From positions 1 through 64,000 of the forward strand of contig NVUW01000004.1 in NCBI GenBank assembly GCA_002733205.1: a DNA stretch of 64,000 nucleotides, in the 5' to 3' direction. A model generated the notes under the pieces. The model did not search any database. It saw nothing but the letters and a program-made list of their open reading frames with translations, and was not told where the DNA came from. Source of the DNA: Thalassobium sp. (GTDB taxonomy: Bacteria; Pseudomonadota; Gammaproteobacteria; Pseudomonadales; Oceanobacteraceae). Both the position numbers and the translations under genes were made by a program. This document shows, piece after piece, positions 862-64,000 of this stretch. The stretch's first letter is position 1, and each line of letters starts with the position of its first letter.

Positions 862-1264
862 AAACAACCTCCTTGTTAAAAATGCCATAGGGCGAAGATG
901 AAGCGACCTGCAGTAAAGTCCACTTCCGATATTGAGCGGGATATTATCAGCAGAGGTCAAAAATCAACAAGGAAGGCGGGTCGGTTTTGTGAACGGGGCG
1001 GAGAAAACTCATAGAAAAGAGCAGGTACGCTGCACGGAAGAAGAAAAAGAAGCAGAGCAGAACAATAAAAACGGGAGGCGGGCCTCCCGTTTTTATTCGT
1101 GCTCAGAGCACCGCACCGTTATTAGGCGTTTTTTGCCCGTCACCTGGCTTTCACCTGGCTCCCACGCTCTGCGTGGTAGCCCTTGCTGGCACAGTTGCAT
1201 TCCCACGCAGAGCGTAGGAACGAGAAAGAAGAGCGTAGGAACGAGAAAGAGCACCGCACCGTCA
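862..1264. other. Gene-free spacer with terminator and a palindromic repeat insertion
   Basis: About 400 bases between the M48 gene and the end of the SDR gene hold no convincing gene. The part near 862-1066 has nothing I recognise beyond the GTG gene's ribosome site. A hairpin terminator sits at 1067-1095, and 1105-1250 carries a repeat element described separately. The ORFs that can be read here run through the repeat and are rejected. Confidence 0.7.
1067..1095 (-). terminator. Intrinsic terminator downstream of the SDR gene
   Basis: A GC-rich inverted repeat (ACGGGAGGC / GCCTCCCGT) is flanked by A-rich and T-rich runs on both sides, so it could act in either direction. On the minus strand it lies about 170 bases beyond the SDR stop codon. 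Confidence 0.8.
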
Positions 1265-1282
1265 TCAGGCGTTTTTTGCCCG
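1105..1282. repeat. Small palindromic repeat element flanked by 35-bp direct repeats
   Basis: Bases 1105-1139 and 1248-1282 are near-identical copies (two mismatches) of the last codons and stop of the SDR gene plus following sequence. Between them lie an inverted repeat (CCCACGCTCTGCGTGG at 1161-1176 against CCCACGCAGAGCGTAGG at 1202-1218) and an exact 21-bp tandem duplication (1209-1229 and 1230-1250). It resembles dispersed REP-like palindromes of the CCCACGC/GCGTGGGAA type. The duplicated gene end suggests insertion with duplication of the target. Confidence 0.6.
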
Positions 1283-2128: not shown

Positions 2129-2327
2129 GCGTATCTCCTGAATTCTGAGCCTGAACCCTGTCCCGCCAGCGGCGTTCGGTGGTGTTATTGTTATTAACGG
2201 GTTCCGGCAAGAACCCAATGCTGCGCAGTGTGTCACGCGACAAAGACGCTGACCCGGTGAATATCGGCCATGATAACGGTCTGAGAATGCAGGTTTGTCT
2301 GCTATTTATCTGCCCGCAGACTGACCA

Positions 2328-2378
2328 GCGCCATTGCTGAAACAGCCCTTCTGCGCGACAATGGCGCCCCTTTTTTTA
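2328..2378 (+). terminator. Terminator-like hairpin in the transketolase leader
   Basis: GCGCCATTG (2328-2336) pairs with CAATGGCGC (2359-2367), followed by CCCTTTTTTT. On the plus strand this has the form of an intrinsic terminator, yet the next gene upstream on this strand is absent (the SDR is divergent). It therefore sits inside the probable 5' leader of tkt, about 70 bases before the start codon. It could attenuate tkt or stop stray transcription. Confidence 0.55.
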
Positions 2379-2448
2379 AAGGCTGGCAATTGGTCGCCTC
2401 CGGGCAAACCTTGCTGGCCAGAACCGAACCTTGATCAGGAGTCGTTAC

Positions 2449-4437
2449 ATGACATCTCGTTCCGAACTGGCGAACGCCATCCGTGCACTGAGCATGGATG
2501 CTGTACAAAAGGCCAAATCCGGCCACCCAGGCGCGCCTATGGGCATGGCCGATATCGCCGAAGTCCTGTGGAATGACTACCTGAAGCACAACCCGAACAA
2601 CCCGGAATGGGCCGACCGCGACCGTTTTATTCTGTCCAACGGTCACGGCTCAATGCTGATCTACTCGCTGCTGCACCTGAGCGGCTACGATCTGAGCATC
2701 GACGATCTGAAAAACTTCCGTCAGCTGCACTCCAAAACACCGGGTCACCCGGAGTACGGTTATGCACCGGGCATTGAAACCACCACCGGCCCACTGGGTC
2801 AGGGCATTGCCAACGGCGTCGGTATGGCGCTGGCCGAGAAAGTTCTGGCGGCACAGTTCAACCGCGACAAGCACAATGTGGTTGATCACCACACTTACGT
2901 GTTTATGGGTGACGGCTGCATGATGGAAGGCATTTCCCATGAAGCCTGCTCACTGGCCGGTACTCTGGGTCTGGGCAAACTGGTTGCCTTCTACGATGAC
3001 AACGGCATTTCCATCGACGGCGAAGTGGAAGGCTGGTTCACCGACGATACCGTTAAGCGTTTTGAAGCTTACGGCTGGCAGGTAATTCCACGCGTTAACG
3101 GCCACGACCCTGAAGAAATCAAACAGGCCATCGAAACCGCCCGCGCTAACACCGAGCAGCCAACCCTGATCTGCTGCAAAACCATCATTGGTTTTGGTTC
3201 ACCCAACAAAGAAGGCAAAGAAGACTGCCACGGCGCACCACTGGGCGACGACGAAATCGCCCTCACCCGCGAGCGTCTGGGCTGGAAACACGGTGCCTTC
3301 GAGATTCCTGCCAATGTGTATGAAGGCTGGAGCGCAAAAGAAAAAGGTCAGGCCGCCGAGCAAAGCTGGGACGAAAAATTCGCCGCCTATGCTGCGGCTT
3401 ACCCGGAGCTGGCAGCCGAATTCAAACGTCGTGTAGGCAATGAACTGCCAGCCGATTTCTCTGCCCAGGCACAGGCTTATATCGACGAATGTCAGGCCAA
3501 AGGCGAAGTAGTTGCTTCGCGTAAAGCTTCGCAGAACACTCTGAACGCGTTTGGCCCGCTGCTGCCGGAATTCCTCGGTGGTTCTGCTGACCTCGCCGGT
3601 TCCAACCTGACCCTGTGGAAAGGTTGCCAGGGCGTGAGCGAAACCGATGCTGCCGGTAACTACGTATTCTACGGCGTGCGTGAGTTCGCCATGAGCGCCA
3701 TGATGAACGGTATCGCTCTGCACAGAGGCTTTATTCCTTACGGCGCCACCTTCCTGATGTTTATGGAATACGCCCGCAACGCCGTACGTATGGCCGCGCT
3801 GATGAAGCAACGCTCCATCTTCGTTTACACCCACGACTCCATTGGTCTGGGTGAAGACGGTCCAACGCACCAGCCGGTAGAACAAGTCGCCAACCTGCGT
3901 AACACGCCGAACCTGGAAACCTGGCGTCCATGCGATACCGTCGAATCCGCTACCGCCTGGAAAGCCGCTATCGAGCGCAAAGATGGCCCAAGCGCGCTGA
4001 TCTTCTCCCGTCAGAACCTGCAGCATCAGCCGCGTTCTGCTGAACAGGTTGCTGCCATTGCCCGTGGTGGTTACATCCTGAAAGATTGTGCCGGTACACC
4101 GGACGCCATCATCATCGCGACCGGTTCTGAAGTAGAACTGGCGACCGCCGCTGCCGAACAATTGGCCGGTAAGAACGTGCGCGTAGTATCCATGCCGTGT
4201 GCGGAAGTGTTCTGCAAACAGGGCGCTGCCTATATGGAAGCCGTACTGCCCGCCGCCGTTAGCGCACGCGTTGCCGTTGAGGCGCTGCACAAAGATTACT
4301 GGCACAAGTTTGTGGGCCTGAACGGCAAGATCATCGGTATGGACACCTTTGGTGAATCCGCACCGGCGCCGCTGCTGTTTAAAGAATTCGGTATTACCGT
4401 GGATGCGGTAGTCGAAGCGGTTAACAGCCTGCTGTAA
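2449..4437 (+). CDS. tkt: Transketolase
   Basis: 662 residues, the usual length for bacterial transketolase. It transfers two-carbon ketol units between sugar phosphates in the pentose phosphate pathway, using thiamine diphosphate and Mg2+. The N-terminal [12 protein letters not shown] region, the ThDP-binding GDG at residues 154-156 and the central [15 protein letters not shown] segment that binds cofactor and substrate are all present. The start at 2449 has AGGAG seven bases upstream; an in-frame TTG at 2431 lies before that site and is rejected. It is a single gene with its own leader and a strong terminator after it. In Pseudomonas relatives tkt is near metK; here no such neighbour is visible. 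Confidence 0.97.
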
Positions 4438-6401: not shown

Positions 6402-6655
6402 GAACAATCCTTAGGGTTGCGTAATGTCCCATCGCCATTTTACCAGTATTGACAACTGAAATAGTAATATATGGTTACCACATCACATCATCGGGGCCGG
6501 ATTATTCCCTGCAATGAACAGGGTTTCTCCGGATAAATCAGACTGGTAATTACCCGCAGAATACGTTATCAGATACACAGGAATGCTAAGGCACCTCTGA
6601 ATAATTCCGCACCGCTTCGCGTGAGTGCTGCAGAGTGCTTTGACGGAGAGCGTTT

Positions 6656-13684: not shown

Positions 13685-16041
13685 GCTTTGCTCTCCTGCT
13701 GACAGAACATCACGGCATTTAATACCCGCTCTGGGGTTGCCGGTGTATCCAGCGGCGGACTGATTTTATAATCCGCCACACTGGCGACGGCATCACGCAG
13801 AGCACACCACACAGCAATACCGTGCATAAATGGCGGCTCGCCCACAGCCTTGGAGTTATAGATCGTATCTTCGGCATTGGCGCGGTCGAACAACTGCACA
13901 TTAAAGTGCTCAGGAATATCAACCGAAGTCGGAATTTTATAGGTAGCTGCGGAGTTGGATTGCAGACGGCCTTTATCATCCCACAATAATTCTTCTGTGG
14001 TTAACCAACCCATGCCCTGAATAAAGGCCCCTTCTATCTGGCCGATATCAATCGCCGGATTCAGCGAGCGGCCCACATCGTGCAGAATATCGGCGCGCAG
14101 TACTTTGTATTCGCCGGTCAGGGTATCGACTTCCACCTCTGCACAACAGGCGCCAAAAGCAAAGTAAAAAAACGGACGGCCACTGGCGGTATCGCGGTTG
14201 TAATGAATTTTCGGTGTGGCGTAATAACCGGTGGTCGAAAGCGATACCCGGTTCTGATACGCCAGCGTGACGAACTCGGCAAAAGAAATCCATTGCGCAC
14301 TGTCATCATCGCTGCCAATCACTACATGGTTATTGATAAAGCGTACGTCACTGGCATTCACCTGATAATGCTGTTGCGCAAACTGCACCAGCCGCGATTT
14401 CAGAATCTGACAGGCATTCTGTGCCGCTTTACCATTTAAATCCGAGCCGGACGATGCCGCTGTTGGCGAGGTGTTCGGTACTTTATCGGTGGCCGTGGCA
14501 CTGGCCTGAACCATATCAATGTCGATATCAAATTCATGGGCAACCACCTGCGCGACTTTGGTGAATAAGCCCTGTCCCATTTCGGTACCGCCATGATTCA
14601 GATGAACCGAGCCATCGGTATAAATATGCACCAGCGCACCGGCCTGATTTAAAAACTGAATGGTAAATGAAATACCAAAACGGATTGGTGTTAATGCCAG
14701 TCCGCGTTTTTTCCAGCGGTTAGCGCGGTTAAATTCTGTAATGGCGGCACGGCGGGTGCGATAATCACAATCCTGCTCCAGCTGCTCAACTAATTCCGGA
14801 AGATAAAAATCTTCCACCGGCTGGCCATAATGGGTACTGCCGCCATCGCGGTAAAAATTGGCTTTACGTACATCCAGCGGATCTTTACCCACGTTACGGG
14901 CAATATCATCCAGCATGGCTTCGGCAAAAATCATCCCCTGTGGCCCGCCAAAACCCCGGTAGGCGGTATTGGATACGGTGTTGGTTTTACAGCGGTGGCC
15001 GATAACCCGCGCGTTATTCAGATCGTAGGCGTTATCCACATGGAACATCGCACGATCAACAATGGCGTCGGATAAATCCGGCGAGTATCCGCAAAAACCG
15101 GCCAGCTCAATATCGGCCCCCAGAATCTTGCCGCTCTCATCAATACCCAGAAGATAGCGGTTATAAAAATCATGGCGCTTACCGGTTAATACCATATCGT
15201 CCTGGCGGTCGAGACGCATTTTTACCGGGCGGTTCAGACGTCGGGCAAAGACCGAAGCAATACAGCCCCACTGGGCGGCCTGGGTTTCTTTACCACCAAA
15301 ACCGCCGCCCATACGCCGCACTTCAACCTGCACATGGTTAATCGGCAGGTCGAGTACTTCAGCAACCAGTTTCTGCACTTCCGATGGATGCTGGCTGGAG
15401 CAATACAATTTAATGCCACCGTCTTCGGCGGGCAGGGCGTAACTGATTTGCCCTTCGAGATAAAAATGCTCCTGACCTTTAACATACAGCTCGCCACTCA
15501 ACTGCAACGGCGCGGAATTAATGGCTGCCGCCGCATCGCCTTTTTGCATTCTGTGTGCGGGACGGACAATAGCGTTTTGTTGCAATGCCTCTTTAATGGT
15601 TAACAGCGGCGGTTGCTCTTCGTAACTGACCTTAGCCAGCAATACGGCGCGCTTTGCCTGTTCAAAGCTTTCGGCCACAACGGCAAATAAAGCCTGACCG
15701 TGAAATTCAACCACGCCATCGGCAAATATCGGGTCGCCTTTAAAGACCGGGCCAATGTCTTTTTCGCCGGGAATATCATCCAGCGTTATCACATCCACCA
15801 CACCCGGCGCATTGCGCACGGCGGTTAAATCGAGCGACAGGATTTTGCCATGGGCGATGGTGCTTTTACCCACCGTGGCAAATAAAGTGCCCGCTAATTC
15901 CGGCATATCATCAATGTAAGTCGCAGTGCCCAGTACGTGCTTTTCGGCGCTTTCATGTGCCAGCTTACTGCCGCTCTTACCTTTGGCCGGACGCTGACGA
16001 CGCGCTTCCCAGGGCGTTACTTTTGAAGAAACGTGACTCAT
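13681..16041 (-). CDS. xdhB: Xanthine dehydrogenase, molybdopterin-binding subunit
   Basis: 786 residues, the normal size of bacterial XdhB. The aldehyde-oxidase/xanthine-dehydrogenase a/b hammerhead starts at SAEKHVLGTATYIDD, and the Moco region shows the family's RRMGGGFGGKE, YRGFGGPQG and HLNHGGTEMGQGL motifs. The late KAVGEPPFMHG motif includes the catalytic glutamate. With XdhA it oxidises hypoxanthine or xanthine to urate with NAD+. The start codon overlaps the xdhA stop as ATGA, and the stop overlaps xdhC likewise, so the three subunit/accessory genes are translationally coupled. Confidence 0.96.
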   Translation of the reverse strand: MSHVSSKVTPWEARRQRPAKGKSGSKLAHESAEKHVLGTATYIDDMPELAGTLFATVGKSTIAHGKILSLDLTAVRNAPGVVDVITLDDIPGEKDIGPVFKGDPIFADGVVEFHGQALFAVVAESFEQAKRAVLLAKVSYEEQPPLLTIKEALQQNAIVRPAHRMQKGDAAAAINSAPLQLSGELYVKGQEHFYLEGQISYALPAEDGGIKLYCSSQHPSEVQKLVAEVLDLPINHVQVEVRRMGGGFGGKETQAAQWGCIASVFARRLNRPVKMRLDRQDDMVLTGKRHDFYNRYLLGIDESGKILGADIELAGFCGYSPDLSDAIVDRAMFHVDNAYDLNNARVIGHRCKTNTVSNTAYRGFGGPQGMIFAEAMLDDIARNVGKDPLDVRKANFYRDGGSTHYGQPVEDFYLPELVEQLEQDCDYRTRRAAITEFNRANRWKKRGLALTPIRFGISFTIQFLNQAGALVHIYTDGSVHLNHGGTEMGQGLFTKVAQVVAHEFDIDIDMVQASATATDKVPNTSPTAASSGSDLNGKAAQNACQILKSRLVQFAQQHYQVNASDVRFINNHVVIGSDDDSAQWISFAEFVTLAYQNRVSLSTTGYYATPKIHYNRDTASGRPFFYFAFGACCAEVEVDTLTGEYKVLRADILHDVGRSLNPAIDIGQIEGAFIQGMGWLTTEELLWDDKGRLQSNSAATYKIPTSVDIPEHFNVQLFDRANAEDTIYNSKAVGEPPFMHGIAVWCALRDAVASVADYKISPPLDTPATPERVLNAVMFCQQESKA

Positions 16042-17498
16042 GCGGCATCTCCTGTCTGTCCGGCGGTTAATTCCAGATAGCTTTTCAGCAACAGATTACG
16101 CGTGACCTGCAGACGATATTCTTTGCTGGCACGGACATCCGACAGCGGCTGATAATCCTGATCGATTAAGTTTGCTGCCTGTAAAAAGGTATGCTCCGAA
16201 AACGGCTGGCCAATTAATGCCTGTTCGGTTTTTAACGCACGTAATGGTGTGGCCGCAACACCGCCGCAGGCCAGACGCGCTTTCTGAATAATGCCGCTCT
16301 GTACATCCAGATACAGGGCAAACATCACCGCTGAAATATCGTCATCGTAACGTTTACTGATTTTATGCAGCGTCAGCGATTCACTGCTCTGTAATTTATT
16401 AATGCGTATGGCGCGTAAATATTCACCGGGCTGCAGCACGGTCTGTTTATACCCCAGATAAAAATCATCAATGGCAACGTCGCGGCGGCCATGATTTCCG
16501 TCAATTTCCAGCGTGGCATTTAAAGCTAAAAAAACGGGGGGCGTATCACCAATCGGTGAAGCATTAGCAATATTGCCCCCCAAAGTGCCCATATTGCGGA
16601 TTTGGCGTGAGCCAATTCGATGCAAGAGCTGAGCAAACGAAGGAAAAAGATCAGCCAGCTCATGCTCAGCCTGACTGTAGGTAACACCGGCGCCCAACCA
16701 CAACTGCTCGTCCAGCGCCTGCGTCTGAGCAAGTGCAGTGATGCGGTTAAGACAAATAATGGTGTCGAATTGTTTAAAGCGTTGGGTAATTTCCAGACCC
16801 ACATCGGTACCGCCGGCCCACAGGCAAGCATCCGGATAGTCGCACAGCAACGCTTTCAGTTGCTCTTCAGTTAATGGCATAAATAAACGGCGGCCATCAA
16901 CATCCTGCAGCGCAACCGGAGAACCATCGGCCGGTACATCGCTTTGCGGGTTAAACGTTTGTACGCCACTGCGGGCAGAAATGTCGCGTACATCACAGGC
17001 TGGCAGTTCTGCCATTTTATGTGCCGCTTCGATAATCGGACGATAACCGGTGCAGCGGCACAGGTTTCCGGACAATGCGGCGTGAATCTGCTCATCGGTT
17101 AATGCGCTCTGCTGCGCATGCAGACCCGCCTGCTGATACAGGTTGGCCAGCGACATAACAAATCCCGGAGTACAGAATCCGCATTGTGAGCCATGGCAAT
17201 CGACCATTGCCTGCTGTGCCGGATGCAATTGCCCGGCACGGCCAATACCGGAAGGCGTTAACAGATAGCGTTCGTGCGCATTGGCCATTAACGCAATGCA
17301 GGCATTCAGTGTGCGGTACTCAATACCACGCTCTGTCATTTCGCCCAGCATCAATGTGCAGGCACCGCAATCACCCGCGGCACAACCTTCTTTTGCATCA
17401 GGTTGCATCATCGTGGTGCGCAGGTATTTCAGAATGGTACAATTTGGATCAATTTTATTGTCTTCAATCCAGCGACCGTTTAGGTTAAATCGAATCAC
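16038..17498 (-). CDS. xdhA: Xanthine dehydrogenase small subunit (2Fe-2S and FAD)
   Basis: 486 residues. The first 2Fe-2S cluster uses C39, C44 and C47 in KEGCAAGDCGACT plus a later cysteine. The second uses CGFC and CRC in the GSQCGFCTPGF and NLCRCTGYRP blocks. The FAD domain begins near LWAGGTDVGLE. It moves electrons from the molybdenum site to NAD+. The start is a GTG at 17498; no ATG lies upstream in frame at a sensible place. It is the first gene of a nine-gene operon (xdhABC-alc-uraD-uraH-allA-guaD-puuD) that runs almost 10 kb, divergent from the nucleobase transporter. Confidence 0.95.
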   Translation of the reverse strand: MIRFNLNGRWIEDNKIDPNCTILKYLRTTMMQPDAKEGCAAGDCGACTLMLGEMTERGIEYRTLNACIALMANAHERYLLTPSGIGRAGQLHPAQQAMVDCHGSQCGFCTPGFVMSLANLYQQAGLHAQQSALTDEQIHAALSGNLCRCTGYRPIIEAAHKMAELPACDVRDISARSGVQTFNPQSDVPADGSPVALQDVDGRRLFMPLTEEQLKALLCDYPDACLWAGGTDVGLEITQRFKQFDTIICLNRITALAQTQALDEQLWLGAGVTYSQAEHELADLFPSFAQLLHRIGSRQIRNMGTLGGNIANASPIGDTPPVFLALNATLEIDGNHGRRDVAIDDFYLGYKQTVLQPGEYLRAIRINKLQSSESLTLHKISKRYDDDISAVMFALYLDVQSGIIQKARLACGGVAATPLRALKTEQALIGQPFSEHTFLQAANLIDQDYQPLSDVRASKEYRLQVTRNLLLKSYLELTAGQTGDAA

Positions 17499-17635
17499 GC
17501 TTACACCTGTTTTCTGCCCGACAGCTCTGTTTATCCGTGCGGCCTGTACGCTTTAAAGGCGTATTCCCGGCAGCATCGCCCGACATAGCTGAATTTCAGT
17601 AGAGAATTCTGTCCGGGGAATGCTTTGCAATTTCC

Positions 17636-17649
17636 TGACCAACTGGTCA
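17636..17649. promoter_or_regulatory. Palindromic operator candidate, copy 1 (xdhA/transporter spacer)
   Basis: TGACCA-AC-TGGTCA is a perfect six-base inverted repeat about 140 bases upstream of xdhA. A second, near-identical copy lies 78 bases away. Repetition of one palindrome in the shared control region of divergent purine genes is what a dedicated repressor or activator site would look like; the regulator is not in the window. Confidence 0.55.
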
Positions 17650-17713
17650 AGCATATAACAAAACATGTTGAAATGTGCAGCAGCAGCATGTGGCAAGCTA
17701 ATTGCTAACGATT

Positions 17714-17727
17714 TGTCCAAGTGGTCA
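17714..17727. promoter_or_regulatory. Palindromic operator candidate, copy 2 (near transporter start)
   Basis: TGTCCA-AG-TGGTCA repeats the first palindrome with one mismatch in the left arm. It is 24 bases before the GTG of the ATPase gene, where it would overlap the promoter or the start of the transcript. Confidence 0.55.
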
Positions 17728-17750
17728 GCTTTTAAATTTGAGGAATCTTA

Positions 17751-19310
17751 GTGCCAGCACAAGAATCAACCATGCGCCTGCATCTGAGCGGTATCCGCAA
17801 AGAGTATCCGGGCTGCCTTGCCAACGATGATATTGAATTGTTGGTGAATGCCGGCGAGACCCACGCCTTACTTGGGGAAAACGGCGCCGGCAAGAGCACC
17901 CTGATGAAAATCATCTACGGCGTTATCAAACCCGACGCTGGTAAGATTGTCTGGCAGGGAGAAGCCATTCAGATGAACGGCCCGGCTCACGCGCGCCAGC
18001 TGGGTATTGGTATGGTGTTTCAACATTTTTCATTGTTTGAAACCCTGACCGTCGCCGAAAACATTGCCCTGAGTCTGCCGGCGGAAGAAAGCCGTGACAT
18101 GGAAGCACTAAGTAAGCGCATCCGTGAAATTTCTACGCACTACGGAATGGCACTGGACCCTGATCGCCATGTACACACCCTCTCGGTCGGTGCTCAGCAG
18201 CGGGTGGAAATCGTCCGCTGTTTACTGCAAGACATTAAGCTGCTGATTCTCGACGAACCCACTTCGGTTCTTACCCCACAGGAAGTGCGCGAACTGTTCC
18301 GCACCCTGAAAACCCTGGCCGCCGAAGGCTGCTCCATTCTGTTTATTTCGCACAAGCTCGATGAGGTCACCGAGCTGTGTAATGCCGCCACCGTACTGCG
18401 TAATGGCCGGGTTACCGGCCGCTGCAATCCACAGGATGTCAGCAGTGAAGACCTGGCGCGGATGATGGTGGGTGAAGATACCCCGCTGAATCAGAATTAT
18501 CAGAAAGCCGAAGGCGGAGAGACCGCCCTCAGCCTGAACAACCTCAGCTTTGCGCCGGAAGATCCGTTCGGCGTGACCCTTAATAATCTGAACCTGAAGG
18601 TAAAAGCCGGCGAAATTCTCGGCATCGCGGGTGTTGCCGGTAATGGTCAGGATGAACTCTGCGCTCTGCTCAGCGGTGAAGAAATCACCCGCGCCGACAG
18701 CATTGAATTACTCGGCCAGAATATCGGTGCCATGAGCCCCGATCAGCGCCGTCGCCTGGGCTTTGCGTTTGTGCCTGAAGAGCGTCTGGGGCGCGGTGCC
18801 GTGCCCAATATGTCACTGGTTGAAAATACCCTGCTCAGCAGCAGTCATCGTGATTTAAAAGCCAACGGTTGGATTAACTACCGCAAAGTACGCGAATTCG
18901 CCCGCGATATTATTGAAAAATATAATGTGAAATGCGCCAACGAATACGCTCAGGCCAAAAGCCTGTCCGGCGGTAACCTGCAAAAATTCATTATTGGCCG
19001 CGAAATAGAACAGCAACCGAAATTGCTCGTGTGTTCTCACCCGACCTGGGGTGTGGATATTGGCGCTGCCATTTTAATCCGCCACGCACTGATTCAACTG
19101 CGTGACGAAGGTGCCGCCATTATTGTGGTATCGGAAGATATTGATGAGCTGTATCAGATATCCGACCGCATCGGTGCTATTTGTGATGGGCAATTGAGCC
19201 CGGTAAAACCAACCCAGGAAGTGGGCATTGAAACACTGGGTCAATGGATGGCCGGTCAATTTGGTCACGACAGTGCCAATCCATCCGCTGTGGAGAGCGC
19301 ACATGCTTAA
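17751..19310 (+). CDS. BmpA-type nucleoside/purine ABC transporter, ATP-binding protein
   Basis: 519 residues with two ABC domains in one chain. The first has Walker A GENGAGKST at residues 42-50, signature LSVGAQQRVE and Walker B LLILDEPT. The second has a degenerate Walker A (GVAGNGQDEL) and signature LSGGNLQKF. This layout is that of the NupO/YufO and sugar-type ATPases that work with two membrane subunits. The GTG at 17751 has GAGGAA at good spacing; an ATG at 17772 is an alternative. It is the first gene of a three-gene operon, divergent from xanthine dehydrogenase, so purine bases or nucleosides are the likely cargo. Confidence 0.9.
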   Translation: MPAQESTMRLHLSGIRKEYPGCLANDDIELLVNAGETHALLGENGAGKSTLMKIIYGVIKPDAGKIVWQGEAIQMNGPAHARQLGIGMVFQHFSLFETLTVAENIALSLPAEESRDMEALSKRIREISTHYGMALDPDRHVHTLSVGAQQRVEIVRCLLQDIKLLILDEPTSVLTPQEVRELFRTLKTLAAEGCSILFISHKLDEVTELCNAATVLRNGRVTGRCNPQDVSSEDLARMMVGEDTPLNQNYQKAEGGETALSLNNLSFAPEDPFGVTLNNLNLKVKAGEILGIAGVAGNGQDELCALLSGEEITRADSIELLGQNIGAMSPDQRRRLGFAFVPEERLGRGAVPNMSLVENTLLSSSHRDLKANGWINYRKVREFARDIIEKYNVKCANEYAQAKSLSGGNLQKFIIGREIEQQPKLLVCSHPTWGVDIGAAILIRHALIQLRDEGAAIIVVSEDIDELYQISDRIGAICDGQLSPVKPTQEVGIETLGQWMAGQFGHDSANPSAVESAHA

Positions 19311-20373
19311 GCTTGAAAAACGTCAGGCCGACTCACGCCTGATGAGTTATGTATCCCCTCTTATCGCTATTGTGCTGACCCTGCTGGCCGGTGCACTGCT
19401 GTTTTCTGTGCTGGGCCATGATCCGCTGCACGCGCTGTATACCTTTTTTATCTCGCCACTGACCAATACTTATGGCTGGACTGAACTGGGAATAAAAGTA
19501 GCGCCGTTGTTACTGTGTGCGATGGGTCTGACATTATGTTACCGCGCCAAAATCTGGAATATCGGTGCCGAAGGCCAGTTTATTATGGGTGCTCTGGGCG
19601 GCAGTATGGCCGCACTGCAGTTTCTTGATGCCGAAAGCCGCTGGGTATTAGTGCCGATTCTGATTGCCGGCAGCATCAGTGGTTTATTGTGGGGAGCATT
19701 GGCAGCGTGGCTGAAAACCCGCTTTAACGCCAACGAAATTCTGACCACCATCATGCTTAACTACATTGCACTGAATGCTCTGCTGTACGCCGTACACGGA
19801 CCGTTACGCGATCCGGCCGGGTTTAACTTTCCGGAATCCGCCATGTTTGCCGATGCCGCATTACTACCCTTATTCAGCGACGATTACCGTCTGAATATTT
19901 CCATTCTGTTTGCGCTGTTTTTTACCGTGGTTATCTGGACGGTCATGGCCCGCAGCTGGGTTGGTTATCAGATTCAGGTGTTGGGTGAAGATGCCAAAGC
20001 CGCACGTTATGCCGGCTTCAACACCAACCGCCTGACCTGGGTTGCCTTATTAGTCTGTGGTGCCTTGGCGGGCCTTGCCGGTGTGTCTGAAGTCACCGGC
20101 CCGATTGGTCAGCTTATCCCGCATGTTTCTCCTGGCTATGGCTATGCGGCCATTATTGTCGTCTTTTTAGGCCGCATGCAGCCCTTCGGTATTCTGCTGG
20201 CCAGTATGCTGCTGGCACTGACATTTATGGGCGGGGAAATGGTGCAGATCGAAATGAGCCTGCCGAAATCCCTGACCGGTTTATTCCAGGGAATGCTGTT
20301 GTTCTTCCTGCTGGCTGCGGATCTGTTGATCAGTTATCGCATTGTCTTTCAACCTCGTACTGCCCGGGCCTGA
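19303..20373 (+). CDS. Nucleoside/purine ABC transporter permease (first subunit)
   Basis: 356 residues, highly hydrophobic with about eight to ten membrane helices. The block KIWNIGAEGQFIMGALGG and the later EDAKAARYAGFNTNR loop are characteristic of NupP/YufP-type permeases that pair with BmpA binding proteins. It overlaps the ATPase gene by eight bases. The ATG at 19303 with GGAGAG upstream is preferred over an earlier in-frame codon that lies deep inside the ATPase gene. Together with the next gene it should form the inner-membrane channel. Confidence 0.92.
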   Translation: MLKLEKRQADSRLMSYVSPLIAIVLTLLAGALLFSVLGHDPLHALYTFFISPLTNTYGWTELGIKVAPLLLCAMGLTLCYRAKIWNIGAEGQFIMGALGGSMAALQFLDAESRWVLVPILIAGSISGLLWGALAAWLKTRFNANEILTTIMLNYIALNALLYAVHGPLRDPAGFNFPESAMFADAALLPLFSDDYRLNISILFALFFTVVIWTVMARSWVGYQIQVLGEDAKAARYAGFNTNRLTWVALLVCGALAGLAGVSEVTGPIGQLIPHVSPGYGYAAIIVVFLGRMQPFGILLASMLLALTFMGGEMVQIEMSLPKSLTGLFQGMLLFFLLAADLLISYRIVFQPRTARA

Positions 20374-57368: not shown

Positions 57369-57724
57369 GGGGATGATTAGGATTCGACGTTGATTACAAA
57401 GCTATGGGTGCATGCCGAGAGTGTATAGCGATCTCGTAAATAAACGTTATACATAGTTATAGTCGCAAACGACGAAACTTACGCACTAGCGGCTTAAGCC
57501 CGCTTACCTCCGAACTCGGGTTCCTATAGCCGGGGGACGAGGGCGACGTCTTATAGGATCGCTTGGAGGCTTCGCTCGTAGCCAAAGAGTTAAACTTAAT
57601 CGAGCTCGTTCTGAACGGCCTGCCCCTCGGCCCGTGACGAACTAAATCAATAGAGACGGCTAAGCATGTAGATCCTCTAGTGGAGGATTGGCGGACGCGG
57701 GTTCAAATCCCGCCATCTCCACCA
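57369..57724 (+). ncRNA. ssrA: Transfer-messenger RNA (tmRNA)
   Basis: The 5' end GGGGATGATTAGGATTCGACG pairs GGGGATG with CATCTCC at the 3' end, which continues to ACCA and contains the T-arm GCGGGTTCAAATCCCGC-like loop. The tag frame at 57465-57497 reads ANDETYALAA and then TAA, a standard proteolysis tag. It rescues stalled ribosomes with SmpB. The 3' end is a frequent integration site for islands. Confidence 0.97.
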
Positions 57725-57734
57725 TATAAATAGA

Positions 57735-57768
57735 GAAGGCCCGACGCGAAAGCGCCGGGCCTTTTTTA
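57735..57768 (+). terminator. Terminator of ssrA
   Basis: AAGGCCCG-ACGC with GCG-C-CGGGCCTT around a GAAA loop, followed by T6, right after the tmRNA. Confidence 0.85.
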
Positions 57769-58106: not shown

Positions 58107-59687
58107 ATGCCTTTCAAAATTTTCCAACGAGTTTCCGCTGCCCCCACCAATCCGCAACGAGTCACCCGACCGAAGCAGTTTGATGTGGCGGATCTCTATC
58201 AGGGCCCTTTGCAATCCGAGTTTGATCCGGCACCAGCTGCCATCGCTTTGGATGAGAAGCTGCGTCAGGCGTATTTCTGGATTGTGAACAGTGCGATCAT
58301 CAGTCCGCACTACGACATTGAATATAACCTCACTCCACCACAGAGTTTCATTGTCGGTGACAGCAAAAGACGCCTGACACTGCCGTCAGCACAGAGCTAT
58401 TCAAGTTACGTGTTACTCCCTCTGCTTACCTTCGCTACCCGGCGTAAGTGTTTGTTTGTCGGCGGTCCAGGGCGCGGTAAAACCGCCAGTGCCATTCTCA
58501 TGGGCGTACTCGCCGGCTACCCGGTAAAAGAAGTACGCAGGGCCATGCAGCACGGCCATCCACAAATGACGATCGCGGATCTGCTGGGAAATCCTCTACC
58601 CGCGGATCTCGTCGGTGCCCAGCGTATGGAAGACATCCGTATCGCCTGGCGTAACTGGCTGGGCATGCGGGTCAAGATCATCGACGAATATAACCGCATC
58701 CCAACCCGCACTCAGAGCGCGCTGCTAACGGTCATGGGCGACAATTACGCCGAAGTGCTGAACCATGTTTTCGAATGCCCGGATTCCGCCTGGTATCTAA
58801 CCGCAAATGACGATCAGGGTGGCGGCACCTATCAGGTAATTGAGGCACTGCGCGATCGTATTGATGTGATAGTACAGGCACTGGCGTTCAATCCACGCTT
58901 TCTTGGCGAACTACTGATGCGAATAGAAGAAGGATTGCGACCAGAAGAAGTGGTTCCGAAAGACATTGTGTTCACTGAAGCCGAAATTGATCAGATGAAC
59001 GCGGATATTCTTAAGATCGAACTGCCGCCACCGCTGCGCCGCCGCCTGGAATTTTTCACCAGTCAGTTTGAATTGTCAGAAGCCGCCGGTGCTCAGTTCG
59101 AGTACATGACCAAAGACACTGCCCGATTAGCGGCCATCGATTGGGCACAACTGGTCGCAGCCGATAACGGGCGTGACCGTCTCAAAGACCTCGGCTGCCA
59201 GACCCTGAATGGCCTGTCGGTGCGTAATCTGATGACGCTTATTATTTACGCTAAGTCGCTGGCCTATTTCCGCGGCAACACCTCTGTCGAACTCGAAGAT
59301 CTGCGTCAGATTCTGCCGTTCGTTTTGAACGACAAACTGACGCCCGACCTGGATGCACCGTTTTTCGCGTTACCTCAAAATGCCGCCTTCCGTTCAGACA
59401 GCATAAGCTGGCTACGCCATCTGTTTGATCTCTCCAATGCAGAATTTGAACGTCTGGGCCTGGATCACGATGATCCGGTGCAACAACTTGATCTTGAGTT
59501 TTCTGCTGGGTTAGATGGGCTCACTGAAAGTGAAGTCCGGACAAGAATAGGCAGAATCGAGCGACTGGTCGGAGAATGGTGTAAAGGCCGGAAGCTCTAT
59601 GGCCATATCTACGATGACTTACTCAAACTGAAATATCTGCACCAGCGTTACACCAATTATCTGCATTGGCTGCAGTTACAACGATGA
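58107..59687 (+). CDS. MoxR-type AAA+ ATPase, first gene of an unusual operon
   Basis: 526 residues. After about 100 residues without a recognised domain comes an AAA+ core: Walker A GGPGRGKT at 119-126, Walker B VKIIDEYNR at 189-197 followed by IPTRTQSALLTVMGD as in MoxR proteins, sensor-1 TANDD at 232-236 and arginines in ALRDRID (about 248-253). A long C-terminal extension (260-526) is mostly helical and unassigned. MoxR ATPases usually act with a von Willebrand A protein in metal insertion or remodelling; such a partner is encoded two genes on. AGGGA precedes the ATG; an adjacent TTG at 58104 is less likely. The stop overlaps the next start (ATGA). Confidence 0.88.
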   Translation: MPFKIFQRVSAAPTNPQRVTRPKQFDVADLYQGPLQSEFDPAPAAIALDEKLRQAYFWIVNSAIISPHYDIEYNLTPPQSFIVGDSKRRLTLPSAQSYSSYVLLPLLTFATRRKCLFVGGPGRGKTASAILMGVLAGYPVKEVRRAMQHGHPQMTIADLLGNPLPADLVGAQRMEDIRIAWRNWLGMRVKIIDEYNRIPTRTQSALLTVMGDNYAEVLNHVFECPDSAWYLTANDDQGGGTYQVIEALRDRIDVIVQALAFNPRFLGELLMRIEEGLRPEEVVPKDIVFTEAEIDQMNADILKIELPPPLRRRLEFFTSQFELSEAAGAQFEYMTKDTARLAAIDWAQLVAADNGRDRLKDLGCQTLNGLSVRNLMTLIIYAKSLAYFRGNTSVELEDLRQILPFVLNDKLTPDLDAPFFALPQNAAFRSDSISWLRHLFDLSNAEFERLGLDHDDPVQQLDLEFSAGLDGLTESEVRTRIGRIERLVGEWCKGRKLYGHIYDDLLKLKYLHQRYTNYLHWLQLQR

Positions 59688-60661
59688 GTATTTCTACCGA
59701 ATTTGCTGAACTGCTGCGTGCTGGCAGGCCGCAGTTTAATGCCCGGGTCGCCGAAGCCCACCACCGCTACCGCGGTTTTAATACCGATGAATTCACCCTG
59801 TTTCTGCAGGAGTGCGTCGATCCGATGATCGTCAATATAGACGCAGCAAACCGCGGTGCTTTTGCCAGCTCGGCGTTCGACATTGCGCTGGATCTCGTGG
59901 GCCGCGAACTGACAGGCGCTCACCCACGGGGGAAGTTACTTACAGCGTTATGGCAAGACACCCTACCAACCCTGACATCGGCTATGGCTGACCGCCCTTC
60001 GTTGTTGATCAGCGCCCTGTGCAATGCACTGCTCAATCTCGAAGCTCTGCCCGCTGCCCGTCCCAATCAATGGCTGGAACTACTCAGAAAATACGGCGGT
60101 AGCCTCACAGCTCCCGATGATCTGCTGCAACTAGGAGTGCTCGCGGCATGGCGCGCAGGTGCCGCACACTTCCGCTTGCCCGCATTACAAGCGGCAGCAC
60201 GTCTTCCACATATCGGTTGCACACTGCTCGATTTAACGCCAGAGAGTGATATGCAGGAACAACTGCGCCTGGCTGAACAGAATCCCTGGCTGATAGCACG
60301 CTCAGACAAGGCTCTTGAGGTAGGTGCGTTCACCGGACTTGGAGGACAGTTTGCAGAGCCACCCGAAGTACGTGCAACCCACGATGGCTTCATCGTCAAA
60401 AGCAGCGACCGTTGTTTCCAGCTTATCGCTGATGGCTTTGGTGCTGTGCTGCTGCCAGCGACTCAGGCTGAATTTGACAGCGCCGGACATGCGGCAAGGG
60501 AAGGCAGACCACCCAAGCTAAGTGCCAATACTCTGATCTATGCGAATTCTTCCGTTGTCATTCCTCTGCCTGCCGATGGGTTACAACTGACCTGGAATGC
60601 ATACACTGCGGCACTGACTTCGCCCTACAGTTTTTCCATCAGTATCGTGCCCTTATTATGA
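59684..60661 (+). CDS. Unrecognised protein of the MoxR/vWA operon (325 aa)
   Basis: I do not recognise this family. The first 190 residues or so look helical, with leucine- and alanine-rich stretches (for example LLISALCNALLNLEALPAARP) but no membrane helix or signal peptide. The last 120 residues look beta-rich, with short hydrophobic strands (GFIVKSSDRCFQLIADGFGAV, SFSISIVPLL). No catalytic motif is visible. Start and stop both overlap neighbours by ATGA, so it is translated together with the ATPase and the vWA protein and is likely to be part of the same complex. Pfam-type MoxR-vWA ternary-system (bpX) domains are one idea to test; I cannot claim it. Confidence 0.7.
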   Translation: MSISTEFAELLRAGRPQFNARVAEAHHRYRGFNTDEFTLFLQECVDPMIVNIDAANRGAFASSAFDIALDLVGRELTGAHPRGKLLTALWQDTLPTLTSAMADRPSLLISALCNALLNLEALPAARPNQWLELLRKYGGSLTAPDDLLQLGVLAAWRAGAAHFRLPALQAAARLPHIGCTLLDLTPESDMQEQLRLAEQNPWLIARSDKALEVGAFTGLGGQFAEPPEVRATHDGFIVKSSDRCFQLIADGFGAVLLPATQAEFDSAGHAAREGRPPKLSANTLIYANSSVVIPLPADGLQLTWNAYTAALTSPYSFSISIVPLL

Positions 60662-62472
60662 CTGGATCTGCAGAGCCTCTTTCACTGCTGGAGCGTTGGC
60701 AGTCCGCCTGGCCCCAGGCTCTGGCTGTCTGGAGTCAATTCACGCGCTTGTCTGATCCGAATCTATGTCAGTCGTCCGTAACTGCAGCCAAAGAAGGACT
60801 TACCAGCAGTTTCGCTATGATCCGTTTGGCCGACCAGAGTGTGGTTGTCGATCTTGAAGGCATAGAAAGGCTGAAGCTGCAGGATTTTGCAGTCGAAGTT
60901 CTTGCCCACGAAATCGGCCACCATGTATTAGCTCCGGCCAACGCCAGTGATCACTATCGACTGCTGGCACGAATCCGCCAGGGCCTGCCAACACTTGAGC
61001 AACACGCGCCAATGGTGGCGAACCTCTATACCGACCTACTGATCAACGATCGCCTGCAACGACAAAGCGGGCTGCGTATGCACGCCATCTATCAACGTCT
61101 GGTCGACTATGACGATCCTATCCGGAAGTCAGGTGTATGGGCCCTCTACCTGCGGATTTACGAAATTTTATGGCAACTTGATCGCGGTGCGCTCGGCGTA
61201 ATGGTTGAAGACAGCCTGTTCAATACTCATGCGTGGCTGGGAGCGCGTCTTGTGCGGGTGTACGCCAATGACTGGTTGACCGGTGGAGCGCGATTTGCCG
61301 CGTTACTGCTGCCCTATCTACATGCGGCAGAGCAGGAAAAAGAAGCGCAGGAAAAAGCTCTTCAACAACTCATGGATACTCAATCAGCAGGTCAGGACTG
61401 CGAACCCACAGGTCTGATTGATTTTGACGATGATGAAAAGGTGCCGCAGTTGCACCCGTCGGAAGATCCTCTGATCACAGACATTGAACCCGATGAAGAA
61501 GAAGCATCAGACACTCCACGGGATGAACAGATAATTCCCGGCCGGGGACAACGTCGGGAACCGTTCGAATATGGCGAAATTCTGCGTGCAGCAGGCCTGA
61601 AGCTCACCGACCATGAACTGGCTGTCCGCTACTACCGCGAAGCCGCTTTACCCTATCTGATCCCCTTTCCTAAGCGTGCTGCACCACAGACTCTGGAGCC
61701 ACAGATGGAAGGACTCGAGGTATGGGAGATGGGTGACGCCCTGGACGAAATCGACTGGCTACAGAGCCTCAGCTATTCACCACAGCCAGTGCCAGGCATA
61801 ACCACATTGAAACGCCGGTATGGCATGGTCGCGGGTGCAGAACCTGCGACACGTCCAGTGGATCTGGATATCTATGTCGACAGCTCAGGCTCTATGCCAA
61901 ACCCGCAGCAACGTATTTCTTATATGGCTCTCGCGGGAGCCGTTATCTGCCTGTCGGCTCTACGCAGCGGAGCGCGCGTGCAAGCCACGTTATGGAGCAG
62001 CAAACACCAGTGTGTCTCCACACCTGGATTCGTTCGTGACGAAGACAGCATTCTGAGTATATTAACCGGCCATTTCGGAGGAGCTACGGCGTTTCCGATT
62101 CACAAACTGCGCGACACCTTTGCCCAGCGTGATCTACAGGATCGCGACTGTCATATCCTGCACATATCCGATGACGGTATCACCACCATGTTTGATCAGG
62201 ATGAGCAGGGCAACAGCGGTTGGGATATCGCTGCAATGGCTCTGGAAAAGGGCCGTGCCGGCGGCACCATGGCTCTGAACCTGTATCGCGAATGGACAAC
62301 ACAGAACGCCACCTACGCAAACGACCTGCGCAAGGCACGGGATCAGCAAGGTTGGGAGGTTTATGCCGTGACAGATCTTGCTCAATTGCTCGAATTTGCC
62401 CGTGAATTCTCCCACCGGCACTATGGCCAGCGCTCAGGTACTCTCCCATCAGCCAAATTTAACGCGGAATAA
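60658..62472 (+). CDS. HEIGH metallopeptidase-like and von Willebrand A domain protein
   Basis: 604 residues. Near the N-terminus HEIGH at 84-88 (VLAHEIGHHVLAP), with NLYTDLLINDRL after it, looks like a zinc-peptidase core of the kind seen in predicted metallopeptidases that pair with MoxR ATPases. The middle (about 220-300) is charged and acidic, with a DFDDDEK and a PDEEEASD stretch, a likely flexible linker. The C-terminus is a von Willebrand A domain: MIDAS DSSGSM at 408-413, the threonine in GGATAFP (477) and the aspartates in HISDDG (505-506). No signal peptide, so it is cytosolic. ATGA coupling to the gene before it supports a common complex. Confidence 0.85.
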   Translation: MTGSAEPLSLLERWQSAWPQALAVWSQFTRLSDPNLCQSSVTAAKEGLTSSFAMIRLADQSVVVDLEGIERLKLQDFAVEVLAHEIGHHVLAPANASDHYRLLARIRQGLPTLEQHAPMVANLYTDLLINDRLQRQSGLRMHAIYQRLVDYDDPIRKSGVWALYLRIYEILWQLDRGALGVMVEDSLFNTHAWLGARLVRVYANDWLTGGARFAALLLPYLHAAEQEKEAQEKALQQLMDTQSAGQDCEPTGLIDFDDDEKVPQLHPSEDPLITDIEPDEEEASDTPRDEQIIPGRGQRREPFEYGEILRAAGLKLTDHELAVRYYREAALPYLIPFPKRAAPQTLEPQMEGLEVWEMGDALDEIDWLQSLSYSPQPVPGITTLKRRYGMVAGAEPATRPVDLDIYVDSSGSMPNPQQRISYMALAGAVICLSALRSGARVQATLWSSKHQCVSTPGFVRDEDSILSILTGHFGGATAFPIHKLRDTFAQRDLQDRDCHILHISDDGITTMFDQDEQGNSGWDIAAMALEKGRAGGTMALNLYREWTTQNATYANDLRKARDQQGWEVYAVTDLAQLLEFAREFSHRHYGQRSGTLPSAKFNAE

Positions 62473-62503
62473 TCCCGGTGAACTCAATGACAAGGATTTC
62501 AGC

Positions 62504-63088
62504 GTGAATAACATTGGACCAGATCTGCAACACCTGTTGCGGCGGATATCTGCCACACCAGCGGATTTTCTGGATGATCCGAAAATGCATGGCCGTGGCG
62601 ACCTAGCAGTTGCCGCGCTGGTGCACGATACACTCCGCCAGACCGGCCATCAGGCCACTGCTGAACAACTGCAACGATTCACTGGCAGTCATGCAGAAAA
62701 GGATCACAACCGACTGAGGTTGGTAGCATTGGCCATCTGGGTACTGAACGATGACTGGTTTAAGAGCACATTACATGATGCCGATGCACTGCTGTCCCTG
62801 CTCGACCTGGCGATGCAGCAACTGGCCGATGTCAGTACGGCGACTAAATACATTAATGACAGTGAACGCCGTGAAGAATTTGCGCGTTTCCTTCTGGCGC
62901 GCCTCGACTACCGCCCTGCGGGCGAAAGTATTACACAAGCGACAGATCGTCTCAGTGCCCTGAGCACGACTGAGCGCAATCGTCTGCTACAGGAAAGCCG
63001 TGAAGCAGAAGCCCGCGCGCGGGCTATCCGTGAAGCTCTCGCAAAGCAGGCGGCCGCAGAATCTGCCGACAAGTGGACACGGGAATGA
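62504..63088 (+). CDS. Unrecognised charged helical protein (194 aa)
   Basis: Not recognised. The start is GTG at 62504, with AAGGA seven bases before it; an upstream in-frame ATG at 62423 would overlap the vWA gene and has no ribosome site. The protein is rich in Leu, Arg and Glu, without membrane segments. The last 60 residues (QESREAEARARAIREALAKQ and around) predict a coiled coil. An HD-like scatter of histidines and aspartates at residues 15-75 (for example LVHDTLRQTGH) is not a clear motif. Its stop overlaps the next start by ATGA, tying it to the adenylating enzyme. Confidence 0.7.
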   Translation: MNNIGPDLQHLLRRISATPADFLDDPKMHGRGDLAVAALVHDTLRQTGHQATAEQLQRFTGSHAEKDHNRLRLVALAIWVLNDDWFKSTLHDADALLSLLDLAMQQLADVSTATKYINDSERREEFARFLLARLDYRPAGESITQATDRLSALSTTERNRLLQESREAEARARAIREALAKQAAAESADKWTRE

Positions 63089-64000
63089 ATCCGTATTTAG
63101 ACCCGGAACGCTATCCTACTCTGAGCGAAGACGGTGCCCGTATGCTCAAATTTCTTCGCGAACATCCACAGGCACCAATCTACCGCAACAGTAGTGGCAA
63201 TAAGCTTACCTCCGAGGATCTGAACCTGCTGGCTGACTATGAGCGAAAACTGAATAACAGCAGAGTCGACTGGAATGACCGTCAACTTCCACATTGGCTG
63301 AATACATTTGTCGATAACGTGTATCGCGACGTCCCATTTTACCGGTCGCAGGGACAAGTGCCCCAATTTAGCGGCATAACTCCAGTGACCCGAGCGGATT
63401 TCAGTCGCGATATTACCGCCTTCGTGCCTGACAGCGTCCCACTCGATCGCATGATCAATTTCCAGACCACAGGCACCAGTGGCAATCCATTATTGTTACC
63501 ATCACATCCCCGTATCGCTGCGACATATCTGTGTTTTCATCGCCGGGCACTGCGCCGGTTTGGCATCGAACTGAGCCACGGCCCTGATAACGTTGGGGTT
63601 GTGCTGGTCGGATATCAGCGTCGTTGCTTCACCTATATTTCGGTCACACCGCAACTGGGCGAATCCGGCCTGGCAAAAATCAACCTGCACACTGACGACT
63701 GGGGAAAGCCCAGTGACCGTGAAGCCTATCTCGATGCGCTGAATGCGGAGATTTACACGGGTGATCCGTTGTCTCTGAGCGCACTGAAAAATCTGCCGCT
63801 AAGCACCCGCCCCAAAGCACTCATATCTGTTGGCATGATGTTATCGGATGGACTGAGAACAGAACTTGAATCCCACTTTAACGCTCCCGTGCTCGACATT
63901 TATTCGTTAAATGAATCAGGGCCTGTAGCGGTTTTCGATCAAGCTCTTGGCGGACACCTGCTATTACAGCCCGAACTCTATGTAGAAATTCTGGATACCG
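63085..64000 (+). CDS. Phenylacetate-CoA ligase-like adenylate-forming enzyme, cut off by window end
   Basis: 305 codons are visible, open at the right edge; a full PaaK-like protein would need roughly 100-150 more. The phosphate-binding loop FQTTGTSGNP is at about 126-135, and the adenylate motif YSLNESGP at 273-280, both as in PaaK/coenzyme F390 synthetase-like enzymes. These activate a carboxylate with ATP to an acyl-adenylate, then usually pass it to CoA or another thiol. The N-terminal 80 residues include YRDVPFYR, common in the family. The substrate is unknown. ATGA overlap with the gene before it places it in the MoxR/vWA operon, an unusual partner. Confidence 0.82.
   Translation, partial: MNPYLDPERYPTLSEDGARMLKFLREHPQAPIYRNSSGNKLTSEDLNLLADYERKLNNSRVDWNDRQLPHWLNTFVDNVYRDVPFYRSQGQVPQFSGITPVTRADFSRDITAFVPDSVPLDRMINFQTTGTSGNPLLLPSHPRIAATYLCFHRRALRRFGIELSHGPDNVGVVLVGYQRRCFTYISVTPQLGESGLAKINLHTDDWGKPSDREAYLDALNAEIYTGDPLSLSALKNLPLSTRPKALISVGMMLSDGLRTELESHFNAPVLDIYSLNESGPVAVFDQALGGHLLLQPELYVEILDT

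Follow-up and report, generated by a model that had tools for sequence, protein, structure and literature searches.

The stretch of DNA analyzed here (positions 1 to 64,000 of contig NVUW01000004.1, forward strand, Thalassobium sp., GenBank assembly GCA_002733205.1; hereafter the window, 64,000 nucleotides) ends within an operon that encodes a MoxR-type AAA+ ATPase, a protein combining a HExxH motif with a von Willebrand factor A (vWA) domain, a PaaK-like adenylate-forming ligase, PnuC, NadR, and two proteins of unnamed families, P2 and P4. The gene set is a real unit: across at least seven bacterial phyla, its members are neighbors or at least occur within one genome. Its recurring order is MoxR–P2–HExxH/vWA–P4–PaaK-like ligase, sometimes with a radical S-adenosylmethionine (SAM) enzyme before P4 and mostly with NadR. 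Persistence of the set in at least seven phyla, with two unnamed families among its parts, indicates a conserved biochemical job that is seemingly undescribed; no description of it was found in the open-licence PubMed Central literature, though one may exist elsewhere. We tentatively suggest a dedicated two-part system in which a MoxR–vWA machine would act on P4 by way of its acidic tail, tied to the ligase and to nicotinamide mononucleotide (NMN) and nicotinamide adenine dinucleotide (NAD).

Gene Organization and Distribution

Five genes form a plus-strand run in the window, with three ATGA overlaps (at 59684, 60658, and 63085) and one gap of 31 bases (62473–62503), a layout reported in the initial annotation and confirmed by the coordinates. 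Beyond base 64000, the same strand carries the remainder of the ligase gene followed by PnuC (contig 64428–65018) and NadR (65005–66123), for seven genes in all. The latter two were missed by the initial annotation and tie the unit to nicotinamide riboside and NAD.

Species genomes were scanned with the MoxR alignment, which yielded at least 268 relatives among the pattern matches, and the best 80 were kept. With three loci fetched earlier, these make up the 83 loci that were profile-scanned (L011 and L027 are from the same genome and both counted). MoxR is present in all 83, P2 in 82, the HExxH/vWA protein in 76, P4 in 71, the ligase in 69, NadR in 64, PnuC in 34, and the radical SAM enzyme in 26. 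Requiring at least 7 kb downstream set aside 11 loci and left 72, with P2 in all of them, HExxH/vWA in 71, P4 and the ligase in 68 each, NadR in 64 (including L076, a remnant of 75 amino acids, and L081, the adenylyltransferase half only), PnuC in 34, and the radical SAM enzyme in 25. The initial annotation had taken the MoxR, HExxH/vWA, and PaaK-like proteins to form one unit; presence of the ligase at 68 of the 72 loci upholds this, and the ligase is not peculiar to this genome.

MoxR, P2, and HExxH/vWA followed by P4 and the ligase are found in Pseudomonadota, Acidobacteria, Geobacteraceae, Gemmatimonas, Verrucomicrobia, Spirochaetes, and Planctomycetes, and a Chloroflexota genome has the two halves of the system apart. 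Many loci are from metagenome bins, and single taxon placements may be wrong. Gene content and order are nearly constant across loci, and because the order recurs across phyla, the arrangement is not a product of chance. At four of the 72 loci (L065, L073, L080, and L089), P4 and the ligase are not near MoxR. P4 is elsewhere in all four of those genomes, as it is somewhere in each of the 20 system genomes searched. The P4 regions of three of the four were read, and the ligase is beside P4 in all three, joined by PnuC and NadR in two. In the L065 genome, the distant P4 region is apparently on MoxR's own contig (both 56,852 bases).

In a sample of 398 Pseudomonadota genomes, three have strong vWA hits, the strong P4 hits are confined to these three, and the remaining vWA and P4 hits are under 24 bits. 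Among the latter, G257 and G149 (vWA search, under 20 bits) and G306 (P4 search, 23 bits for a match of 59 residues that contains a stop) were taken as chance. At most eight P4 candidates and five NadR candidates were scored per genome in this sample, and all candidates were scored in the P4 and NadR searches of the 20 system genomes. Pairwise identities of five parts covary across 53 loci (Spearman 0.79–0.88), and those of NadR covary with MoxR at 0.64.

These patterns bear on the possibility that two or three unrelated units (MoxR–vWA, nicotinamide riboside salvage, and the ligase pair) are mere neighbors. PnuC–NadR pairs close to the operon type do occur where the genome has no strong hit for P4 or vWA (L135, L136, and L137). 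Against mere proximity, the set recurs across phyla, its order is rearranged at some loci, and a missing half is found elsewhere in the genome. We regard coincidental proximity, already disfavored, as very improbable.

Loci vary in small ways. Ten have an extra frame of ∼157 amino acids between MoxR and P2, ∼1.6 kb after the MoxR start, and eight of these are Janthinobacterium (L043, L046, L049, L050, L053, L054, L056, and L058). The verrucomicrobial locus L081 has two P4–ligase pairs (14418–20074) with a different radical-SAM-like gene between them.

MoxR, P2, and the HExxH/vWA Protein

The MoxR gene (58107–59687, plus strand) encodes 526 amino acids, and its product exceeds the Pfam cut-offs for AAA_3 (31.1 bits; cut-off 27) and AAA_lid_2 (27.3 bits; cut-off 22.7). 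Its Walker A motif, GGPGRGKT (residues 119–126; 58461–58484, plus strand), is invariant in a three-sequence alignment. These results agree with the initial annotation of a MoxR-type AAA+ ATPase. Mean pairwise identity of MoxR across 53 loci is 72%, with a minimum of 59%. Near-copies (12 Janthinobacterium loci plus L016, L023, L027, and L063) are left out of this and other identity means.

The HExxH/vWA protein (60658–62472, plus strand; 604 amino acids), likewise recognized from the start as a HEIGH and vWA protein, is below the Pfam cut-off (VWA_2, 21.8 bits vs. 27), and its identity is clear from conserved motifs. In an alignment of 36 sequences, H84, E85, G87, and H88 of the zincin-like HEIGH motif (residues 84–88; 60907–60921, plus strand) are invariant. 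So are D408, S410, S412, and D505 of the metal ion-dependent adhesion site (MIDAS), with T477 conserved in at least 90%; the DSSGS core occupies residues 408–412 (61879–61893, plus strand). The Pfam match spans residues 407–505, and conserved columns reach residue 589 of 604. Integrin-like complexes have reportedly been described for midasin. In vWA partners of MoxR proteins, the sixth ligand of the MIDAS metal comes from the target, and MoxR–vWA pairs insert metals, which for NorQD is iron, as described in the accessible part of PMC13036017.

P2 (59684–60661, plus strand) is the least conserved part, with a mean identity of 35% against 72% for MoxR (53 loci). Its AlphaFold2 model (predicted local distance difference test [pLDDT] of 96.1) has a helical N-terminal domain (residues 1–200) and then a beta domain that resembles propeller blades. 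The best structural comparison of the beta domain is with part of a propeller (5h13; Z of 8.5, root-mean-square deviation of 3.4 over 108 residues), a middling level of similarity. No Foldseek match was found for P2 at an E-value of 0.001 and no PDB sequence match at E-values up to 1. Nine Pfam families were weakly matched across the P2 family, each in one of 55 members and none common to more. Assignments of the window's P2 to DUF4867 (E = 0.011) or ELK are unconvincing single-member matches.

P4 and the Adenylate-Forming Ligase

P4 (62504–63088, plus strand, with a GTG start) has 194 amino acids and ends in KWTRE (63071–63085, plus strand). Its last residue is E in 69 of 71 tails and D in the other two, preceded by R in 69, such that 67 end in RE. 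These 71 include many Janthinobacterium near-copies, and the fragment at L084 was left out. Overlap with the start of the ligase gene is not the cause of the acidic end, because P4 proteins of the 23 loci in which the ligase starts after the P4 stop retain it (RE in 20, RD in two, and GE in one). The AlphaFold2 model of P4 is all-helical with a long C-terminal helix (pLDDT of 93.1). The window's P4 has no Pfam match. Matches of other members to DUF4158 (four of 51, best E = 4e-5) and TY-Chap3 (one of 51, E = 1.7e-4) are scattered, and neither was accepted. No fold relative was found by Foldseek (best E = 1.4) or with a Z of 5 or more, which is no evidence of a new fold. Most simply, the acidic C-terminus of P4 may be a docking handle for the MIDAS, given that this acidic end is invariant and that P4 co-occurs with a vWA protein whose MIDAS is intact. 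Such a tail would offer a clean test of how MIDAS sites choose their clients.

The ligase gene has an ATG start at 63085 and an in-frame GTG at 63073, spans 63085–64000 of the window on the plus strand, and continues to contig 64431. Its product is below the Pfam cut-off for AMP-binding (27.3 bits vs. 29.9) and well under NCBIfam cut-offs (68 bits vs. 300). Its identity is nonetheless clear from motifs and PDB relatives, in line with the PaaK-like adenylate-forming enzyme of the initial annotation. Motifs of the ANL superfamily, by their usual names, are kept across 30 aligned rows, including the ATP-binding TTGTSG (residues 132–137 numbered from the GTG at 63073; 63466–63483, plus strand) and, in all but three rows by eye, the A10-type lysine K434. 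The nearest PDB sequence is 9s3l, a phenylacetate-CoA ligase (E = 7.9e-22). We take the nearest solved relatives to be CoA ligases and related enzymes that act on small acids.

The initial annotation had also suggested that a small carboxylate or a protein C-terminus is activated, with remodeling or proteolysis attached. Extended to P4, the ligase would adenylate the P4 C-terminus and join it to an amine or nucleotide as a form of tagging or conjugation, and the HExxH site would be a deconjugating peptidase. The close coupling of the two genes (a median gap of −4 in 67 plus-strand loci, 39 of which have ATGA-type overlaps) and conservation of the tail to its very last residue are consistent with this idea. 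On the other hand, the nearest solved relatives presumably use small acids, and in three of 30 ligases (L085, L088, and L090) the A10-type lysine is missing by eye, yet P4 of these loci still ends in E. Because of the latter, the tail as ligase substrate is mildly disfavored. A role for a protein C-terminus fits P4, with E or D at the end of all 71 tails; activation of that C-terminus by the ligase we consider quite improbable.

NadR, PnuC, and the Radical SAM Enzyme

PnuC is a nicotinamide riboside importer (PF04973, 160.7 bits; cut-off 27.3). NadR is a nicotinamide riboside kinase/NMN adenylyltransferase that scores 138.8 bits over both domains of TIGR01526, below the cut-off of 341. Across 31 rows, H22, G24, H25, R170, and G201 of NadR are invariant and K202 is conserved in at least 90%. 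Of the 64 loci with NadR, 58 have the gene downstream and two have it upstream, in both cases in the same sense, and four have it in the opposite sense. Near full-length NadR was found in 18 of 20 system genomes, including eight of the ten that were picked for a missing or broken NadR near MoxR. The genome of the acidobacterial locus has NadR elsewhere, and only the kinase half was found in the Gemmatimonas genome. For comparison, near full-length NadR is present in at least 27 of the 398 Pseudomonadota genomes, a base rate that may be low given that no more than five candidates were scored in each. The linkage of NadR to the unit is strong.

On a tree of 65 NadR rows, the in-operon label requires ten changes, eight of which are forced by well-supported branches, and hence NadR has entered or departed from the operon more than once. 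The tree omits the same near-copies as the identity means as well as the over-long frame of L010, for which a trimmed version was included. NAD auxotrophy was rejected as an explanation of NadR. Of the 20 system genomes, 18 have NadA (17 common to the NadR set; not found in G451 and G455), and the genome of the window has a second PnuC, so PnuC–NadR does not appear to make up for a missing NAD route. A role for the pair beyond feeding the NAD pool would follow from its link to a protein machine.

The radical SAM enzyme has SPASM-type relatives where present. It is absent from the operon in 47 of 72 loci. It was rejected as an essential part because 16 system genomes without an operon copy have only distant relatives elsewhere, none scoring above 63 bits, compared to 462 and 516 for operon copies. 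A RiPP-like modification (as in ribosomally synthesized and post-translationally modified peptides) of the P4 tail at W/Y-[ST]-R is not supported either, the tail being much alike with and without the enzyme. Nor was the enzyme assigned to viperin (best NCBIfam match of one member, 49.9 bits vs. a cut-off of 180).

The link to NAD raises the possibility of cofactor or metal insertion. The ligase would activate a pyridine or aryl carboxylate, NadR and PnuC would supply a nucleotide, and MoxR–vWA would insert the product. LarE, which acts on an NAD-derived acid, is a parallel. This explanation draws on the linkage of NadR to the system, on the occurrence of aryl-acid ligases among the ligase's closest PDB relatives, and on the insertion of metals by other MoxR–vWA pairs (PMC13036017, in its accessible part). 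It is set back by the lack of a visible apo-enzyme in the operon and by the radical SAM enzyme, which is missing from most loci and has only those distant relatives elsewhere. We view cofactor insertion as possible but somewhat unlikely.

Proposed Mechanism

We return to the two-part system. The first part, MoxR, P2, and HExxH/vWA, would use ATP for remodeling or processing, as a machine of the NorQD/CbbQO type in which the fast-changing P2 is the adaptor. The second part, P4, the PaaK-like ligase, PnuC/NadR, and sometimes the radical SAM enzyme, would supply client and chemistry. P4 may be a dedicated client or adaptor whose invariant acidic C-terminus gives the sixth ligand to the MIDAS metal. 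The MoxR ring could then twist or thread P4 or its cargo, and the HExxH site may hydrolyze that target. The ligase is predicted to form an acyl- or aryl-adenylate, and PnuC–NadR may channel nicotinamide riboside into NMN and NAD within the unit. We infer the physical interactions, the substrate of the ligase, and the NAD step, the least certain part of the mechanism, from the gene set, co-occurrence, motifs, and predicted folds that we observe. The unit would then probably mature or repair an enzyme or cofactor with a link to NAD chemistry, rather than supply NAD as such.

A more specific version, which we consider speculative and on the unlikely side, is that a cofactor or modification derived from nicotinamide is built by the PaaK-like enzyme together with NadR and ends up on P4, or via P4 on a client enzyme, with the MoxR–vWA–metallopeptidase acting through the free acidic C-terminus of P4. 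If true, a cellular system of a new kind would be present in at least seven bacterial phyla.

Several observations weigh against the two-part proposal. No client enzyme is seen in the operon. The end of the P4 helix is modeled with low confidence (pLDDT of 67 in the last block). P4 keeps the ligase as its neighbor in genomes where the two are separated from MoxR–P2–vWA, and for this reason its tail may serve the ligase instead. PnuC is present in only 34 of 72 loci, and in the 20 system genomes, NadR was not found in one and is reduced to its kinase half in another. Correlated identities are also expected from common descent, and more distant MoxR relatives beyond the best 80 could carry another gene set.

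Genomic Setting and the Question of Defense

The 3′ end of the tmRNA gene ssrA (57369–57724, plus strand; predicted by ARAGORN) is the integration site of a 9.4 kb island on which the operon resides. A 40-base repeat from the end of ssrA (57706–57745, plus strand) recurs 9,409 bases on (contig 67115–67154, 90% identical; L003 1207–1246 and 10616–10655). In relative G002, the sequence to the right of the second repeat is directly behind ssrA (L103; positions 1–669 match the ssrA side at 93% and 608–4244 match the right side at 89%). This arrangement and the repeat pair reveal the island with a visible empty site. One integrase query found no integrase in the island. The vWA gene is in one of 55 genomes searched, that of the window, and is absent from all 54 relatives. 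In relatives G006 and G004 (L105 and L108), the sequence behind ssrA varies between species of the genus, and because of these differences, the end of ssrA looks like an insertion hot spot.

Other repeats are present in and near the island. Perfect 22-base inverted repeats, 242 bases apart, are at the 3′ end of NadR (contig 66065–66086 and 66329–66350; L003 9566–9587 and 9830–9851). The first arm is inside the NadR frame, the pair resembles a small transposable element, and a copy with one mismatch is at window 6586–6607. A receptor-like frame is inside the right end of the island (L003 10079–10552). A 300-base direct repeat of 90% identity (L003 11544–11843 and 14213–14512) is presumably chemotaxis-receptor-like. 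In L011 (Pseudoxanthomonas daejeonensis), a protein of 1174 amino acids without a Pfam match (15448–18972, minus strand) adjoins the operon, and an integrase and tRNA-Val are on the operon's other side from it.

The island bears on the question of whether the unit is a phage-defense or conflict system akin to the MoxR–vWA ternary systems, in which NadR and PnuC would restore NAD after an NAD-depleting attack. The layout of MoxR, vWA, and a third component, the fast-changing P2, the location in an ssrA island, the integrase beside L011, and the sparse presence among relatives are all consistent with defense. According to the accessible part of PMC7159879, conflict systems are recognized by swapping of effectors, by parts of high variability, and by a patchy distribution with lateral transfer. 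The last two are seen here, at least in part, in the variable P2 and the patchy, island-borne presence. NadR is one of several NAD salvage genes that phages carry, and MoxR is not mentioned in the accessible part of that source (PMC9503650).

Other evidence points away from defense. Effector swapping was not seen at the 72 loci, whose content and order are nearly constant, and flanking families are common to Janthinobacterium loci. No match was found in phages or plasmids for the HExxH/vWA protein (E = 1e-3), in plasmids (E = 1e-20) or phages (E = 1e-10) for MoxR, or in viral contigs for vWA, MoxR, or P4, the last of which was sought in viral contigs only. Likewise, DNA of MoxR and P2 had no match in Escherichia coli. 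Of the seven operon proteins, PADLOC matched only NadR, weakly, with none for the other six, and matches to the integrase query are confined to one genome (L011 and L027) among the 83 loci. With phage, plasmid, and viral searches empty and gene content varying little, we consider defense, an idea that the initial annotation had raised, unlikely.

Comparison with Known Systems

Four MoxR–vWA ternary systems have been described, namely the VMAP, iSTAND, FtsH, and beta-propeller types (Kaur et al. 2020, PMC7159879; this and the following statements refer to the accessible part of the source). Like them, the unit has MoxR, vWA, and a third component, and in some ternary systems a metallopeptidase, a radical SAM enzyme, and a protein whose C-terminal peptide is conserved are encoded close by. 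In contrast, the unit has no FtsH gene, no propeller behind vWA, and a nearly constant gene content, and the source makes no mention of NAD genes or a PaaK-like ligase in ternary systems. The initial annotation had pointed to the beta-propeller type, and membership in it is not supported: the propeller behind vWA that defines this type is lacking, as is room for one, and the P-loop of MoxR is the canonical GGPGRGKT rather than GXXXTAKS, a form that is frequent in that type and not strictly defining. The N-terminal motifs of VMAP-type MoxR proteins, WxhapG and PsWRxa, are absent by eye, the sole W before Walker A being in FWIVNSA. A Pfam search of the window's operon proteins found no second AAA+ protein of the FtsH type. 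A strict feature is therefore lacking for the beta-propeller type, and one of the features tested is lacking for each of the VMAP and FtsH types.

Individual parts have likenesses of their own. The ligase has ATP-binding and catalytic motifs in common with PaaK-like ligases (9s3l, 4r1l, and AjiA1) but is distant from them (E = 7.9e-22 at best). The HExxH/vWA protein and DUF2201_N (PF13203) both have HExxH, D-x-x-[IV]-N, and then a DxSxS vWA-type motif. Their match by hhalign is only weak (probability of 7.7%, E = 0.0045), with HExxH and DxxIN in register, and a Pfam scan did not report DUF2201_N for the 36 vWA members. Group 2.2 jumbo phages pair MoxR with a vWA fused to an N-terminal metallopeptidase, as in the unit, but a role in virion assembly is proposed for the phage pair and no ligase, P4, or NadR is mentioned in the accessible part of the source (PMC7824862). 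The unit also differs from NorQ–NorD and CbbQ–CbbO in that its client enzyme is unseen, its vWA protein has an N-terminal HExxH, and P2, P4, a ligase, and NadR are added, but it shares with these pairs a MoxR AAA+ ring and a MIDAS-bearing vWA partner (accessible part of PMC13036017).

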